A program made the translations under genes and the position numbers. Of a stretch of 64,000 bases of DNA, positions 1,975-62,731 are shown in pieces. Source of the DNA: Oscillatoria nigro-viridis PCC 7112 (GTDB lineage: Bacteria; Cyanobacteriota; Cyanobacteriia; Cyanobacteriales; Microcoleaceae); NCBI RefSeq assembly GCF_000317475.1, contig NC_019729.1:5594501-5658500 (forward strand), read 5' to 3'. The stretch's first letter is position 1, and every line of letters starts with the position of its first letter. The notes under the pieces were generated by a model. The model worked only from the letters and a program-made list of their open reading frames with translations. It made no database searches and was not told where the DNA came from.

Positions 1975-2262
1975 CGTTGGGCGGCGGCGGGTTTATTATA
2001 TTGTTGGTTTCAGGCATAGATAGTTGGTGAAACCCGCCCCGACGATAACCTGTAGGGGCGGGTTTTACCAACAATATTTGAGCCTCACAAACAATCTACA
2101 AAAACCCGCCCCCACCCAACCCATAACCCAATTTAACCTGATTTTCTAAATCGTTCAAAAAATGTAGATTCCGATTTGCCGCCCAAGCGGGGGCGGGTTT
2201 ATTAGATTGTTGGTTTCTAACATAAATGGTTGGTGAAACCAGCCCCTACGATCGCCTATAAC
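1975..2262. repeat. REP-like palindromic repeat array (family 1), right of transposase remnant
   Basis: This is the same repeat family as left of the transposase: AAACCCGCCCC, GACGATAACCTGTA loop, GGGGCGGGTTTT, then CCAACAATATTTGAG, AAACCCGCCCCCACCCAACC and another GGGGGCGGGTTTATTA. It ends ten bases before the priA stop codon. The left and right arrays together bracket the RAYT remnant. Confidence 0.8.
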
Positions 2263-2270
2263 CCCACCAA

Positions 2271-4832
2271 TCAACCAAAATTCAACGGATCGACATCAAT
2301 AGTTAAACTAACAGAACGCGGCGTGCGATCGCGCAATCCGATCAAATCCGACAAATCCACCGACTCATCCAAAGGCAACTTCAGCAAAATCTGCCACCGA
2401 TAGCGATTTGCCACCCGCATAATCGCCGCAGGTGCAGGCCCCAACAACTCACACCCCGGTAGAGACAATCGCTCAATATACTCATGACAAACAGACGCCA
2501 ATTGTACCGCCGTCACCGCAACTTCCGCCGCATCTACACTGCTCAACCGCAACAAAATCAGCCGCCCCGAAGGTGGATAATTCAGCGCCGATCTTTCTGC
2601 TAATTCTGTTTCCACAAAACCTGCATATTCGTGCCGCCTAACTGCTTGAATAACCCGGTGTTCGGGAGTGTAAGTTTGAATAATTACCCGCCCCGGATCG
2701 TCGCCTCTGCCGGCACGGCCCGCGACTTGAGTTAATGTTTGAAAAGCTCGTTCGCTTGCCCGATAATCTGATAAGTTCAGCAACCCGTCAGCAGACACAA
2801 CTCCCACCAATGTTACTCCAGCTAAATCTAACCCTTTCGTCAGCATTTGCGTACCCAACAAAATGTCAGCTTCCCCATTAGCAAATTGCGTTAACAATCT
2901 GCGGTGGTCGCCCTTATTTCTAGTCGTATCGCTGTCAAACCGGATTGCCCGCAATTCGGGAAATAATCTCGTTAATTCCTGTTCGACTCGCTGAGTGCCG
3001 CTGCCAAAGTTTTTGAAGTAAGGAGAACTGCATTCCGGGCAGTTTTGGGGGTGTCGTTCCGTGTGGTTGCAGTAGTGACAGCGCAACACTTCTGCGGTTC
3101 CTTCGCCGACGTGGTGATAAGACAGAGAAACATCGCAGTTCGGGCATTCCATCACATAGCCGCAACTCCGACAAGACACAAAGGTACTGTGTCCTCTTCT
3201 GTGAATAAACAGGATACCTTGCTGTTGTCTGGCTTGCAATTGTTCCAGCGCGTTTTGCAGGGAAGCGCTGAAAATTGAGCGGTTTCCTTGCCGCAATTCT
3301 TGGCGCATATCGACTATTTCCACAGGCGGCATCGGGCGGGAATAAATGCGATCGGGCAATGATAAATAATGGATGTTTGGTAACGAGTAATAATCTCGGC
3401 GCGTCCCCACCAAAGTCTCTAAGGCTGGCGTTGCGGAACCTAAAATTAAGGGACAATTTTCTAATTCGGCGCGCCATTTGGCAACGGTGCGGGCGTGGTA
3501 GCAGGGGGCTGGTTGGTCTTGTTTGAAGCTGCTGTCGTGTTCTTCATCGAGGATAATTAAGCCGAGGTGAGGTAAAGGCGCAAAAATGGCCGATCGCGTG
3601 CCGATGACAATTTGCGGGGTTCCAGTCAGCATCTGACGCCATGTATCGTAACGTTCGCCGTCGGATAGGGCGCTGTGGTACACGCAAATTTGCTCGCCAA
3701 AACGGGCGCGGAATCTGTCTGTAAGTTGGGGTGTCAGGCCGATTTCGGGAACGAGTACGAGGGCGGATTTGCCGCTGGCTAAGATTGGGGCGATCGCCTG
3801 CAAATACACTTCGGTTTTCCCCGAACCTGTAACGCCGTGCAGCAGCACTTGACGGAATCCCGAAAAAGAGTTAATAAACGCTAAAGCTTCAGCTTGAAAA
3901 TGAGTTAAAGTTTTGGGTGCATCTGGCAATTGAGAAATTCCGCGATCGCCCCTGAGCACTTCCCTTTGATCGATAACAACGCTACCTTTTTGTTCCAAAG
4001 CTTTGACAACCGAAGAACTCGCGCTGCAAATCCTCAGTAAATCATTCATCCACATTTCACCGCCACCCCGGCGCAAAACTTCCAATACTTCTTGTTGACG
4101 CTTGGTTAAATCTGTGACAAATGCACTAGCAATTAATGTCACTGCCGGTTTGAGTTGTGGTTTGGGAGGATGGGGAGGTTCTAAATAACTTTCTACCCAA
4201 CCGCGTTTCAATAAATCTCGCAATCCCCGATAACTTCCCTTGACTTGTCGCTGGAGGTATTGCCAAGTGTAATCGCCGTTTTTTTGAGCTTGCAGCAATT
4301 GCAAAATTTGACTGGCTGCGGGATTGAGAAATGTTTCGGCATTCGGAGAAATTGCGTCTTTAATTAAGCGAATTCGGCGCACGGAACGGCTTAACAAACC
4401 GGGCGGCAGCGAGGCTCTAATTACTTGAATTAAAGGTGTGCAATAATAGGTGGCAGTGCGATCGAGTAATTCCCAGTAAGTCGGCGGGAAAAAACCCGTA
4501 CTGACAACATCTTCGACATCTTTAACCCGCGCCGGATCTAAGTCGGGCGGCAGTTGAGAAATGAACCGAATTGCGATCGCCCCTACCTGTTGACTGCCAA
4601 AGGGTACACTCAAAATATCCCCCGGTTGCACGGTAAGTTCCGCAGGTAAACGATAGGTAAATAACTTATTTTCCTCCCCAGGGGAGTCCCCCGCAACCCT
4701 GAAAGGAGAGTCCACCAATACCTCGATCCACTCTGCTTGCAGGGTGGGGCGCTGTGGCGGTTCGCTGCTGCCGTAGGATGCCCCGGCCTCTGCCGCTACA
4801 GGGGTTGACAAACCAAAAGTGACAGTAGACAT
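2271..4832 (-). CDS. priA: Primosomal protein N' (replication restart helicase PriA)
   Basis: This superfamily 2 3'-5' DNA helicase reloads the replisome at stalled forks. The N-terminal 3'-DNA-binding region (with LFTYRLP and DILSVPFG) is followed by a winged-helix part. The helicase core has Walker A GVTGSGKT near residue 335 and a DEEH box (LIILDEEHDSS) near residue 426. Between roughly residues 550 and 610 lie eight cysteines in CxxC pairs (CRSCGYVMECPNC, CHYCNHTERHPQNCPEC), the PriA zinc-binding insert. Helicase motif V/VI is seen in LLGTQMLTKGLD and QVAGRAGRG. I chose ATG at 4832 (MSTVTFG). Upstream ATG 4844 and TTG 4868 are in frame and cannot be excluded. The gene stands alone, with REP repeats at its 3' end. 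Confidence 0.95.
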   Translation of the reverse strand: MSTVTFGLSTPVAAEAGASYGSSEPPQRPTLQAEWIEVLVDSPFRVAGDSPGEENKLFTYRLPAELTVQPGDILSVPFGSQQVGAIAIRFISQLPPDLDPARVKDVEDVVSTGFFPPTYWELLDRTATYYCTPLIQVIRASLPPGLLSRSVRRIRLIKDAISPNAETFLNPAASQILQLLQAQKNGDYTWQYLQRQVKGSYRGLRDLLKRGWVESYLEPPHPPKPQLKPAVTLIASAFVTDLTKRQQEVLEVLRRGGGEMWMNDLLRICSASSSVVKALEQKGSVVIDQREVLRGDRGISQLPDAPKTLTHFQAEALAFINSFSGFRQVLLHGVTGSGKTEVYLQAIAPILASGKSALVLVPEIGLTPQLTDRFRARFGEQICVYHSALSDGERYDTWRQMLTGTPQIVIGTRSAIFAPLPHLGLIILDEEHDSSFKQDQPAPCYHARTVAKWRAELENCPLILGSATPALETLVGTRRDYYSLPNIHYLSLPDRIYSRPMPPVEIVDMRQELRQGNRSIFSASLQNALEQLQARQQQGILFIHRRGHSTFVSCRSCGYVMECPNCDVSLSYHHVGEGTAEVLRCHYCNHTERHPQNCPECSSPYFKNFGSGTQRVEQELTRLFPELRAIRFDSDTTRNKGDHRRLLTQFANGEADILLGTQMLTKGLDLAGVTLVGVVSADGLLNLSDYRASERAFQTLTQVAGRAGRGDDPGRVIIQTYTPEHRVIQAVRRHEYAGFVETELAERSALNYPPSGRLILLRLSSVDAAEVAVTAVQLASVCHEYIERLSLPGCELLGPAPAAIMRVANRYRWQILLKLPLDESVDLSDLIGLRDRTPRSVSLTIDVDPLNFG

Positions 4833-59286: not shown

Positions 59287-59766
59287 ATGAACATCCGCAT
59301 CGGCAACGGCTACGACATTCACTGCTTAGTTCCAGAACGCCCCCTCATCCTCGGCGGCGTCCACATTCCCCACGAATTAGGCTTACTCGGACACAGCGAC
59401 GCCGACGTACTTACCCACGCTATCATGGACGCGATGCTCGGAGCTCTCAGCTTAGGAGATATCGGGCTGTATTTCCCTCCAACTGACCCGAAATGGAAAG
59501 GTGCTGATAGTCTCGTATTGCTGGCACAAGTCAATCAGTTAATATTAGATAAAGGCTGGGAAATCGGCAATATTGATTCGGTGGTGGTGGCCGAACGTCC
59601 AAAGCTGAAACCGCATATTGAGCAAATGCGCGATCGGCTTTCTACTGTCCTACAATTAAAACCCGACCAAATCGGCATCAAAGCTACTACAAACGAAAAG
59701 TTAGGGCCCGTGGGGAGAGAAGAAGGAATCGCGGCTTACGCTGTAGTTTTGCTGGGCAAAAAATAA
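59287..59766 (+). CDS. ispF: 2-C-methyl-D-erythritol 2,4-cyclodiphosphate synthase
   Basis: A 159-residue trimeric enzyme of the MEP isoprenoid pathway. Zinc ligands are in GYDIHCL and [17 protein letters not shown]. Further signatures are [12 protein letters not shown] and the C-terminal [20 protein letters not shown]. The start ATG 59287 ([10 protein letters not shown]) matches family length; an in-frame start 36 bases upstream is rejected. Provides precursors for carotenoids and phytol. Confidence 0.96.
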
Positions 59767-59828: not shown

Positions 59829-60347
59829 ATGCAAACTGAAACCTTGGATTTAGAGTTACCCGTAGACGCCGATATTATCGCATTGGATAAGAACGATCGG
59901 GTAGTCGTGCTAATCGAAGTCAAAATTATTCAAGCTCAAGAAAAGGGAGCCAAGCAGAGGATTGCTGACTACATGATATCTTGGATGAAAGCTGCGTTAG
60001 CGAAAATGTCCGAGCAAGGCACCATCATTCCCTATGCGATGTTTGTTGACACCGAACAGATGCTGATTTTCAAATGGGACGGAGTAAATTTATCTGAACC
60101 TGTTTGTTCTCTAAACACTGCTGAGATACTTCGCTATTATGAGCCTGAATTTGGCAACAAACGGATATTTAAGCGATACCTAACTAGACTGGTTGAAGCA
60201 TGGCTGCGCGACTTAGCTTATAATTGGAAGTCTGAGATTCCAACCGCGTCAGAACAGATAGCAAAAATCGGCTTGCTGCCACTGCTAGCAGGTGGAACGA
60301 CAAAATCAGGGGTAGAAATTGGTGGCAATTTTATATATCGAGACTAA
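59829..60347 (+). CDS. Putative PD-(D/E)XK-like protein, first gene of a nuclease-like pair
   Basis: A 172-residue protein with a good Shine-Dalgarno (AGGAAGG) and ATG 59829. The N-terminal half shows DADIIALDKNDRVVVLIEVK, a strand with Asp, then strand E-V-K, the PD-(D/E)XK nuclease layout. QRIADYMISWMKAALAK and MFVDTEQMLIFKWDG follow, as in nuclease-fold proteins with an IADYM helix. The C-terminal half (FKRYLTRLVEAWLRDLAYNW) is helical. It overlaps the next gene, a PIN-like protein, by 29 bases, so the two are translationally linked. Function unknown; a defence or toxin-antitoxin-like role is inferred from context only. Confidence 0.68.
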   Translation: MQTETLDLELPVDADIIALDKNDRVVVLIEVKIIQAQEKGAKQRIADYMISWMKAALAKMSEQGTIIPYAMFVDTEQMLIFKWDGVNLSEPVCSLNTAEILRYYEPEFGNKRIFKRYLTRLVEAWLRDLAYNWKSEIPTASEQIAKIGLLPLLAGGTTKSGVEIGGNFIYRD

Positions 60348-60927
60348 CTTTCTGATGAGCATTGCTACGGGACGCGACCCTGACGCTAACAACTTGTTGG
60401 TGAGTGTACCGACATCAGTCAGCATAGCCATACCAAGTATTTGCTGCATGGAATCACTTTCGGCTTTAGAAGACGAAATCAAGCGACGCAACCGTTTTTT
60501 AGATGAAATGGAAAAACAAATTAGTCAGCTAAAGCGAGATAAAACTTCCCCCTCTGCCCAGTCTCTTGTCTTCCACTTAGAGCAATCACTCAATGAAAAC
60601 GAGGCTCTGATAAATGATATTAATGCACGTCTTTTTACAGCTCTTGATTTGTCGGCCACAAAGATAGAAATGATTTCCTTAACAGCAGGCATACTTCAAG
60701 CAAGTTTGAATTCAATTTTTATTGAAGAAGACCCTACAGACAATTTGATTCTGCACTGCATCTTGAATCACGCACACTTACATCCTCATGAAGTCAAGGT
60801 ATTTTTGATCAATAATACCAAAGAATTTGGTCTGCCCAAAGTTCAAGATGCTTTGCGGGAAGTAGGGATAACCAAGTATTTTTCGCGCACTGAAGACTTT
60901 CTCGGTTGGTTACAATCTCAGTCATAG
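60319..60927 (+). CDS. PIN-like domain protein, second gene of the pair
   Basis: A 202-residue protein from GTG 60319. It starts VAILYIETNFLMSIATG, resembling the LDTN strand of PIN domains but with Glu replacing the first Asp. Then comes CMESLSALEDE (second acid), a long charged helix (KRRNRFLDEMEKQISQLKRD), and DPTDNLILHCILNHA (third acid). In FLINNTKEFG, the usual fourth Asp is Asn/Thr. The ~70-residue helical insertion makes it longer than VapC. It may be an RNase or an inactive PIN scaffold; partner and target unknown. Confidence 0.68.
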   Translation: MVAILYIETNFLMSIATGRDPDANNLLVSVPTSVSIAIPSICCMESLSALEDEIKRRNRFLDEMEKQISQLKRDKTSPSAQSLVFHLEQSLNENEALINDINARLFTALDLSATKIEMISLTAGILQASLNSIFIEEDPTDNLILHCILNHAHLHPHEVKVFLINNTKEFGLPKVQDALREVGITKYFSRTEDFLGWLQSQS

Positions 60928-60955: not shown

Positions 60956-62731
60956 ATGAAAATTTCTATGATGGTACATTCAAAACTGCGCTGGCTGGCG
61001 ATTGTACTGGCTGCAATTGCTACCGTAACTCTGTCTGCGTGCACTCCGGTGCGATCGACTAACTTAGCAAACAGACTCATCGTTCCCACCCCCAGCGGCC
61101 CGGCCACCTTTAACTACCCGCTAAATCAATCTGCATACAGCGTTTTTGGCTATATGTACGATGGATTGATCAACGAAAACGGCTTGACATCGAAGCTAGA
61201 ACCCGGTTTAGCCGAGTCCTGGGAAGTTTCTAAAGATGGCAAAAAGATTGTCTTTACCTTGCGAGAGGGTTTGAAATGGTCCGACGGCGAACCGATGACT
61301 GCGGATGACATTATCTTCAGCTATGAAAAGATTTATTTCAATGACAAAATTCCTAGCGGTTTGAAAGATACTCTGAGGGTTGGGATGAGTCGCCAATTCC
61401 CAAAAGTTAAAAAAATTGACAGCCGCCGCGTTGAATTTTCCGTTGCCGAACCCTTTGCTCCTTTTATTAGATATGCTGGGGGAATCCCGATTTTGCCAGC
61501 TCATATTTTACAGGAAGCTGCCGAAAATACAGATGCAGACGGCAAGCCTAAATTCCTGGCTACTTGGGGCACGGATACCGACCCTAAAAAAATTGTCGGC
61601 AACGGTCAGTACCGAATGCTGAGCTACACTCCCAATCAGCGCGTGGTTTTGGAACGAAATCCGTATTTTTGGCGCAAAGATGCTGAGGGAAATCCTCAAC
61701 CTTACATCCAGCAAATTGTTTGGCAAATTATCGAAAATACTGACAATCAAATGCTGAATTTTCGCTCGGGCGATTTGGATACTCTAACCGTGGAGCCGGA
61801 AGTGTTTCCCCTGCTGAAACGGGAGGAAAAACGCGGCAAATATACGGTCTTTAACGGCGGGCCGGATACTGGCAGCGTGTTTATGTGTTTCAATCTGAAT
61901 AAGGGGCGCAATGCTCAAAATCAGCCGTTTGTAGACCCGGTTAAGTCTCGCTGGTTCGCGAGTAAGGAATTTCGGCAGGCGATCGCCTACGGCATCAACC
62001 GATCCGCCATGACTAACAATATTTATCGCGGACTGGGCGCGCCGCTGCATTCCCCAATTCCGCCCCAAAGCCCGTTCTACCTGTCCCCAGAACAGGGATT
62101 GAAAACTTACAGTTACGATCGGCAAAAAGCCAAAGAGTTGCTGTTAAGTGCAGGTTTCAAATATAATAGTGAGGGTCAATTATTGGATGCGGAGGGCAAC
62201 AAAGTCCGATTTACTTTGTTGATGGCTGCGGGTAAAAAAGTTCGAGAACAAATGGGAACGCAAATTAAACAAGATTTGGGCAAACTGGGGATGCAAATTG
62301 ATACGCAGTTCCTGAGTTTTAACACTTATGTGGAAAAGCTGCGATTGACGCGGAATTGGGATACTTACCTCGGCGGTTTTACGGGAGGTACTGAACCGCA
62401 CAGCGGCTACAATATTTGGTCTGTTAACGGGACTTTGCACAGTTTCAACCAGGGGCCGCAAGCCGGAGAACCGCCGATTAAGGGTTGGAAAGTTGACGAC
62501 TGGGAGCAGAAAATAGATGACCTTTACGTGAAAGCTTCCCAGGAGCTTGATGAGGCGAAGCGCAAGGAAATTTATGGGGAGACGCAGCGGATTATAGCGG
62601 AACAAGTGCCGTTTATCTATATGGTAAATCCGCTGACTTTTGAGGCGGTGCGCGATCGCGTTTCGGGAATTCGCTACAGTGCCCTCGGCGGTGCTTTCTG
62701 GAATTTGTACGAGTTGAAAATAACAGAATAG
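60956..62731 (+). CDS. ABC transporter substrate-binding lipoprotein, peptide/oligopeptide type (SBP_bac_5)
   Basis: A 591-residue protein. A lipoprotein signal (MVHSKLRWLAIVLAAIATVT, LSAC lipobox) is followed by the family-5 solute-binding fold: SWEVSKDGKKIVFTLREGLK, WSDGEPMTADDIIFSYE and GNGQYRMLSYTPNQRVVLER. Later come REFRQAIAYGINR-like SKEFRQAIAYGINRSAM and KAKELLLSAGF. It binds peptides or similar ligands in the periplasm for an ABC permease. No permease or ATPase genes are nearby, as often for such cyanobacterial loci. The start ATG 60956 may be preceded by a weak site. Confidence 0.9.
   Translation: MKISMMVHSKLRWLAIVLAAIATVTLSACTPVRSTNLANRLIVPTPSGPATFNYPLNQSAYSVFGYMYDGLINENGLTSKLEPGLAESWEVSKDGKKIVFTLREGLKWSDGEPMTADDIIFSYEKIYFNDKIPSGLKDTLRVGMSRQFPKVKKIDSRRVEFSVAEPFAPFIRYAGGIPILPAHILQEAAENTDADGKPKFLATWGTDTDPKKIVGNGQYRMLSYTPNQRVVLERNPYFWRKDAEGNPQPYIQQIVWQIIENTDNQMLNFRSGDLDTLTVEPEVFPLLKREEKRGKYTVFNGGPDTGSVFMCFNLNKGRNAQNQPFVDPVKSRWFASKEFRQAIAYGINRSAMTNNIYRGLGAPLHSPIPPQSPFYLSPEQGLKTYSYDRQKAKELLLSAGFKYNSEGQLLDAEGNKVRFTLLMAAGKKVREQMGTQIKQDLGKLGMQIDTQFLSFNTYVEKLRLTRNWDTYLGGFTGGTEPHSGYNIWSVNGTLHSFNQGPQAGEPPIKGWKVDDWEQKIDDLYVKASQELDEAKRKEIYGETQRIIAEQVPFIYMVNPLTFEAVRDRVSGIRYSALGGAFWNLYELKITE

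Follow-up and report, generated by a model that had tools for sequence, protein, structure and literature searches.

The 64,000-nucleotide window of the Oscillatoria nigro-viridis PCC 7112 genome analysed here contains a real, co-conserved module of two genes, for which we found no description in the open-licence literature. The downstream gene encodes a protein of the PIN family, and the upstream gene encodes a small partner, PDx, with a likely PD-(D/E)XK fold. We think it probable that these two genes form a type II toxin-antitoxin-like module. This reading draws on the order of the two-gene unit, the conserved acids of PIN, the presence or absence of the pair at one genomic site, its carriage on plasmids, the loss of PIN, and the inheritance of PIN together with the C-terminal half of PDx. 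The arrangement found is that of type II systems: the genes lie on the same strand, are adjacent or overlapping and co-conserved, and also occur on mobile elements. The coordinates and strand in Table 1 bear out the original prediction, which had placed an overlapping gene pair between ispF and a transport gene, and the tight unit and small module that it described are seen in the co-conservation of the pair across genomes.

Table 1. Features of the PDx-PIN locus, in positions of the window (protein features in residues)
Feature	Position	Strand	Description
PDx gene	59829..60347	+	172 aa; ATG start with AGGAAGG ahead of it; proposed antitoxin
PDx protein layout			As modelled: truncated PD-(D/E)XK-like core, residues ~12-100; C-terminal region, 101-172
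PIN gene	60319..60927	+	PIN_12 protein, 202 aa from TTG 60319; proposed toxin RNase
PIN protein layout			VapC-like fold; helical hairpin 41-115; acids E8, E45, D141 and, probably, E169
Overlap of PDx and PIN frames	60319..60347	+	29 bases
ispF	59287..59766	+	Left border of the site holding the PDx-PIN pair
SBP	60956..62731	+	ABC peptide-transport solute-binding protein; borders the site on the right

The putative names ispF and SBP for the neighbouring genes were read from their translations. For PIN, a GTG codon at 60322 is a likelier start than the listed TTG, because a start codon is possible only there in several relatives. The overlap of the two frames suggests that translation of PDx and PIN is coupled, and a scan for promoters and terminators gave a chance-level result. 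The closest named relatives of the PIN protein are found in Microcoleus, Tychonema, and other Oscillatoriales.

The fold of the PIN protein is firmly assigned. It scores 51 bits against the Pfam family PF16289 (PIN_12), above the curated cut-off of 32, and an AlphaFold2 model with a 32-row alignment as input has a mean pLDDT of 93.9. The model matches VapC (3zvk) in Foldseek (E 1.5e-4) and in VIA-align (Z 10.2, rmsd 3.1, 126 residues aligned); yeast Nmd4 and further PIN proteins tie with VapC as structural matches. The model also contains the long helical insertion that had been predicted, formed by helices at residues 41-73 and 80-115. Look-ups of solved structures with single sequences of the pair gave no match.

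The active site of VapC is made up of four acids, the first of which is Asp. Counts of the corresponding PIN residues were made in 94 full-length copies from 108 rows, 14 partial or very divergent rows being excluded. E8 and D141 are each present in 94/94 copies, N166 in 93/94, and E45 in 89/94; an acid (D or E) occupies position 169 in 89/94, and all four acids occur together in 84/94. Replacement of the first Asp by Glu, as predicted from the window alone, is a fixed trait of the family. The fourth acid had been considered doubtful but is probably E169, because D or E is so frequent at this position and because a low-scoring profile alignment pairs the N..KDF motif of PIN with its counterpart in a solved VapC. 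A missing fourth acid is a less likely reading: E169 agrees with the motif of VapC, though the alignment is weak. A decayed or scaffold-only PIN protein is rejected on the joint conservation of the four acids, and the suggestion that PIN is the altered member of the pair gives way to the finding that it is the motif of PDx that erodes instead. In full-length PIN proteins encoded alongside an intact PDx, E45 is replaced by Ser at four loci of Microcoleus-like genomes (L044, L050, L051, and L053, in G001, G004, G024, and G019). Judged by sequence, these alleles are candidates for naturally inactive toxins. The E45S alleles L078 and L081 are absent from the 32-row alignment, in which E45 appeared invariant.

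When copies of PDx were scanned against Pfam, NCBIfam, PADLOC, and PHROGs, no model matched above threshold; the sub-threshold Pfam matches were PDDEXK_14 and HSDR_N_2, and plasmid records annotate the protein as ‘hypothetical protein’. The structural model (pLDDT 89.4) has strands at residues 12-19 and 25-31, a helix at 39-62, more strands, and helices from 115-131 onward. This resembles a PD-(D/E)XK core that lacks the first helix, with a C-terminal part after it. The top Foldseek match is 9y1l, which is restriction-endonuclease-like, and VIA-align gives matches to several PD-(D/E)XK chains intermixed with unrelated chains; these similarities lie under the safe level of the tools (E 7.5e-3 for the best Foldseek match, none reaching 1e-3, and Z 4-5 in VIA-align). 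Furthermore, a profile that combines the two subfamilies of PDx, A and the divergent B, matched the BpuSI restriction endonuclease (E 0.0073, profile positions 12-88). Of the two nuclease-like folds originally proposed, that of PIN is thus firm, through PIN_12 and the VapC match, and a PD-(D/E)XK fold for PDx is likely only; in neither protein does the evidence point to a fold unrelated to nucleases.

The D..(D/E)xK nuclease motif consists of D15, E30, and K32 in the PDx copy of the window. It is intact in 42/80 subfamily-A copies versus 27/30 subfamily-B copies, and so is eroded in the first subfamily and kept in the second. The best-conserved residues of PDx lie outside the motif: W125 (110/110), Y104 (108/110), and G148 (107/110). 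Within the PDx copies scanned with Pfam and NCBIfam there was no DNA-binding domain typical of antitoxins, including the AbrB, RHH, Phd, or HTH domains of VapB-type partners, and this counts against the toxin-antitoxin reading. The motif of subfamily B would also suit an active nuclease rather than an antitoxin.

Relatives of PIN were identified in 55 of the 148 nearest genomes and those of PDx in 48. Profile searches in 338 genomes across the class matched PIN in 39 genomes and PDx in 24, the latter with a profile built from subfamily A only. As it recurs across many genomes, the pairing is not due to chance. Of 58 PDx-PIN rows from related loci, 41 have overlapping frames, and in most of the others the two genes are no more than about 60 bases apart. 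Contigs found by the PIN protein have ispF closely upstream and SBP closely downstream in 48 of 55 loci, and this placement is common to Oscillatoriales and Nostocales (NCBI names; the two form one order in the taxonomy of the genome set). In a sample of 30 chosen genomes without a subfamily-A match, ispF was located in 29; 12 of them have SBP within 300 bp of ispF and show no remnant of either PDx or PIN. Tandem copies of the pair are present in Hormoscilla (L085, L087, and L089) and Rhizonema (L088); upstream of the Hormoscilla pairs there are further broken PIN genes, and no PDx was detected for those remnants. A copy is carried by a Sphaerospermopsis plasmid typed as conjugative.

Toxin-antitoxin modules are usually mobile, and the stable position of the pair across these two orders is evidence against assigning it to them. 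Together with the purifying selection described below, this position would favour a housekeeping pair that processes a cellular RNA, in which PDx is a scaffold or a subunit conferring specificity and PIN is lost through relaxed constraint. We regard such a role as improbable. The PIN profile matches too few genomes of the class for it, and clean empty sites, tandem copies, and plasmid carriage argue in the same direction; nor would a housekeeping pair be predicted to leave PDx outliving PIN, as it does in 15 cases to 0.

The divergent subfamily B extends the association. Its PIN proteins have 17-22% identity to that of the window (eight in the alignment), and directly upstream, in most cases overlapping by 4 bases, is the gene for a protein of ~150-190 aa with a match to the PDx profile. 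Both genes are adjacent in all 32 subfamily-B places with readable context (14 + 18), each place being counted once. A PIN fragment at a contig edge and a duplicate do not add to this number, and a locus missed by the pattern of the first scan enters through the second only. The PDx frame is uninterrupted in 30 of the 32 places and split in 2. Two of the 30, from one species pair (L232 and L233), match the PDx profile weakly, and in another (L230) the PIN frame is shortened at its C-terminus. Pairs of this subfamily are located on Tolypothrix and Gloeothece plasmids, with one on a plasmid of Hymenobacter (Bacteroidota), and further cyanobacterial plasmids carry the PIN gene. For subfamily A, 74 places were drawn from the PIN and PDx searches of both genome sets, and three coil matches inside long ORFs were excluded as unrelated. 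PDx and PIN, whole or as remains, are neighbours in 68 of the 74; the exceptions are a lone PDx in G115a and G338, and lone remnants in G095, G117, G073, and G126. The search for co-conserved neighbours, which had been proposed as a check on the pair, therefore demonstrates that the genes are not commonly unlinked. The occurrences seen beyond the cyanobacteria are the Hymenobacter plasmid and a contig binned as Planctomycetota. The latter (L107, coverage ~1) holds a complete pair with a PIN protein 41% identical, and represents a transfer or a binning error.

Decay of the two genes was tallied across the same 74 places of subfamily A, and the tally was repeated under fixed thresholds. Both genes are intact in 54 places, 4 of which have Ser at PIN E45. 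An intact PDx accompanies a broken PIN in 13 (in one of these, G093b, PDx fits its profile only to position 136), and PIN is absent in 2; PDx is broken with PIN intact in none; the remaining 5 have both genes broken or a lone remnant. The asymmetry of 15 to 0 is not explained by the length of PIN (202 versus 172 aa). Most PIN lesions look like separate events, since they differ in kind and place. Assembly errors may lie behind some of the frameshifts, those in draft or MAG contigs, but the truncations, internal deletions at varied sites, and one insertion cannot all be. Two loci outside the tally, as are the Hormoscilla remnants, have both genes broken (L101) or a split PIN with a whole PDx (L110).

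Thus PIN is preferentially lost in subfamily A, and one subfamily-B lineage, the only such lineage seen, shows the opposite. In this lineage (L222 and L223, from G075 and G123 of one genus), PDx is split by an apparently shared lesion and PIN is open; the PIN protein of G123 lacks E45, and that of G075 retains all four acids. A search with the PDx profile for a second PDx in a subfamily-B genome with a broken PDx found none. An open PIN beside a broken PDx counts against the toxin-antitoxin reading. The 15 of 74 places in which PDx survives and PIN is broken or absent might instead indicate that PDx has a function of its own, such as regulation of SBP or ispF, and that PIN is a hitch-hiking neighbour. 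This is very unlikely, given the invariable adjacency of the genes in subfamily B, the presence of adjacent pairs on plasmids far from ispF and SBP, and the tracking of the PIN allele by the C-terminal half of PDx.

Evidence for this tracking comes from distance correlations in 21 Microcoleus-like genomes, among the 27 with all four genes whole (from the 55 loci plus the window). Against PIN distances, r is 0.91 for the C-terminal half of PDx and 0.46 for its N-terminal half. By comparison, the values are 0.87 between the two halves of PIN, 0.63 between the two halves of PDx, 0.31 between the C-terminal half of PIN and the N-terminus of SBP, and 0.15 between PIN and ispF. The contrast is smaller in all 27 genomes (0.90 and 0.77 for the C- and N-terminal halves of PDx against PIN), and after allowing for SBP distance these become 0.77 and 0.38. 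Windows place the step in correlation near PDx residues 90-110, and subsampling was also run. Within the genus, the C-terminal half of PDx and PIN travel as one allele, and the nuclease-like half, with its weaker correlation, is swapped more freely. A toxin-binding segment would give such a pattern, to which plain linkage contributes; the correlations rest on about three allelic classes, in which physical linkage and coadaptation are not fully separable. Purifying selection acts on both genes, and they evolve fast, with omega 0.24 for each (for PIN, 163/210 pairs were within the usable range) compared with 0.06 for ispF and 0.11 for SBP.

These observations lead to a model for the proposed toxin-antitoxin module. 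The PIN protein would cleave an RNA and be toxic when free. PDx would bind it mainly through the C-terminal half (EAWLRDLAYHWKSE..PPA..IGLL..L.GG) and block it, and the overlapping frames with coupled translation would keep the supply of PDx matched to that of PIN. The PD-(D/E)XK-like core in the N-terminal part of PDx appears no longer to be kept as a nuclease in subfamily A; it may have a role in nucleic-acid binding, for instance in autoregulation. Classical antitoxins have a DNA-binding N-terminal part and a toxin-binding C-terminal part; the plan suggested for PDx would be the same, built on a different fold.

The original prediction raised a role in defence, for which there is no direct support: no PADLOC model matched, and phages and viral contigs gave no match to the pair in scans that used few patterns. 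A specific version of this idea is a two-nuclease effector, in which a PDx-PIN complex cuts invading nucleic acid or aborts infection and PDx is a working or sensing nuclease. Both folds are nuclease-related, and the D..ExK motif is retained by subfamily B. Fast evolution, allelic classes, presence or absence at one site, and plasmid carriage, all of them seen here, are common in defence genes. Nevertheless, we judge this explanation to be unlikely, as the motif is intact in only about half of the subfamily-A copies, the PDx model is without a helix ahead of its first strand, and PDx is retained where PIN is broken, in addition to the negative scans. A toxin-antitoxin-like module could still serve in defence. 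It is also conceivable, although we hold it only as a tentative suggestion, that PDx represents a new class of antitoxin, in which a PD-(D/E)XK fold has been turned into a PIN inhibitor. Subfamily B would then still be a dual-nuclease form, with PDx restraining PIN and also sensing or cutting DNA; in subfamily A, the nuclease site would have been largely lost and the inhibitor kept.

Amongst known systems, the pair resembles VapBC in several respects. The fold of PIN is close to that of VapC 3zvk, tied with other PIN proteins, its acids are conserved, the N..(K/R)(D/E)F motif is also found in a solved VapC, and the partner gene comes first and often overlaps. The differences are that the acids here are E-E-D-(D/E), without the Asp that VapC has in first position, that the helical hairpin brings the toxin to ~200 aa, and that the partner is a protein of ~150-190 aa whose modelled fold is PD-(D/E)XK-like. 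PDx can also be compared with 9y1l, 3ijm, and 1wdj, which we take to be Uma2-like PD-(D/E)XK proteins. The first of these heads the Foldseek matches, and all three have Z 4.3-4.9 to the PDx model, where viral cap-snatching endonucleases and others tie with them. PDx differs in lacking the first helix, in having no Pfam Uma2 match, and in being tied to a PIN gene.

Partners of PIN proteins named in the accessible part of a 2009 survey of type II systems by Makarova et al. (PMC2701414) include RHH, AbrB, COG2442, COG2880, COG1753, COG2886, MerR, PHD, Xre, and COG2856. These pairs likewise combine a PIN toxin with a small partner, which in several cases is not VapB; in contrast to PDx, no PD-(D/E)XK protein is among the partners named there. 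The same part of that source names Uma2 (COG4636), a PD-(D/E)XK family, as a likely solo toxin. In Synechocystis 6803, sll0405-sll0406 is listed in a 2016 study (PMC4963859) as a PIN gene preceded by a ‘hypothetical’ antitoxin in the order AT-T. This is the same gene order of PIN and upstream antitoxin as in the pair studied here, and sll0405-sll0406 might belong with PDx-PIN.

If the proposed functions are confirmed, the range of antitoxin folds acting on PIN toxins would gain a PD-(D/E)XK-derived partner, and there would be a PIN active site that always begins with Glu. Should the more tentative view of a new antitoxin class be true, this would be a nuclease caught mid-change into an antitoxin. 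The natural series of alleles around one chromosomal site, with intact, E45-dead, or truncated PIN and an intact or eroded D..ExK motif, offers a ready way to examine the passage from enzyme fold to inhibitor.

Other genes in these genomes touch on the elements discussed here. In the genome of O. nigro-viridis, contig C5 has a second PIN_12-like match of 27 bits, below the cut-off. This is a different PIN-like gene, with Xre-like and peptidase-like neighbours and no PDx-like ORF listed. As read from translations, Xre-like, COG2856-like peptidase, and PIN-like genes lie there in a row (L242, ~2047-3500, minus strand), which resembles the Xre-COG2856-PIN links in the accessible part of PMC2701414 and is unrelated to the PDx-PIN pair. 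At five other loci (L074, L085, L087, L088, and L102), the SBP gene adjoining the pair has additional copies nearby.
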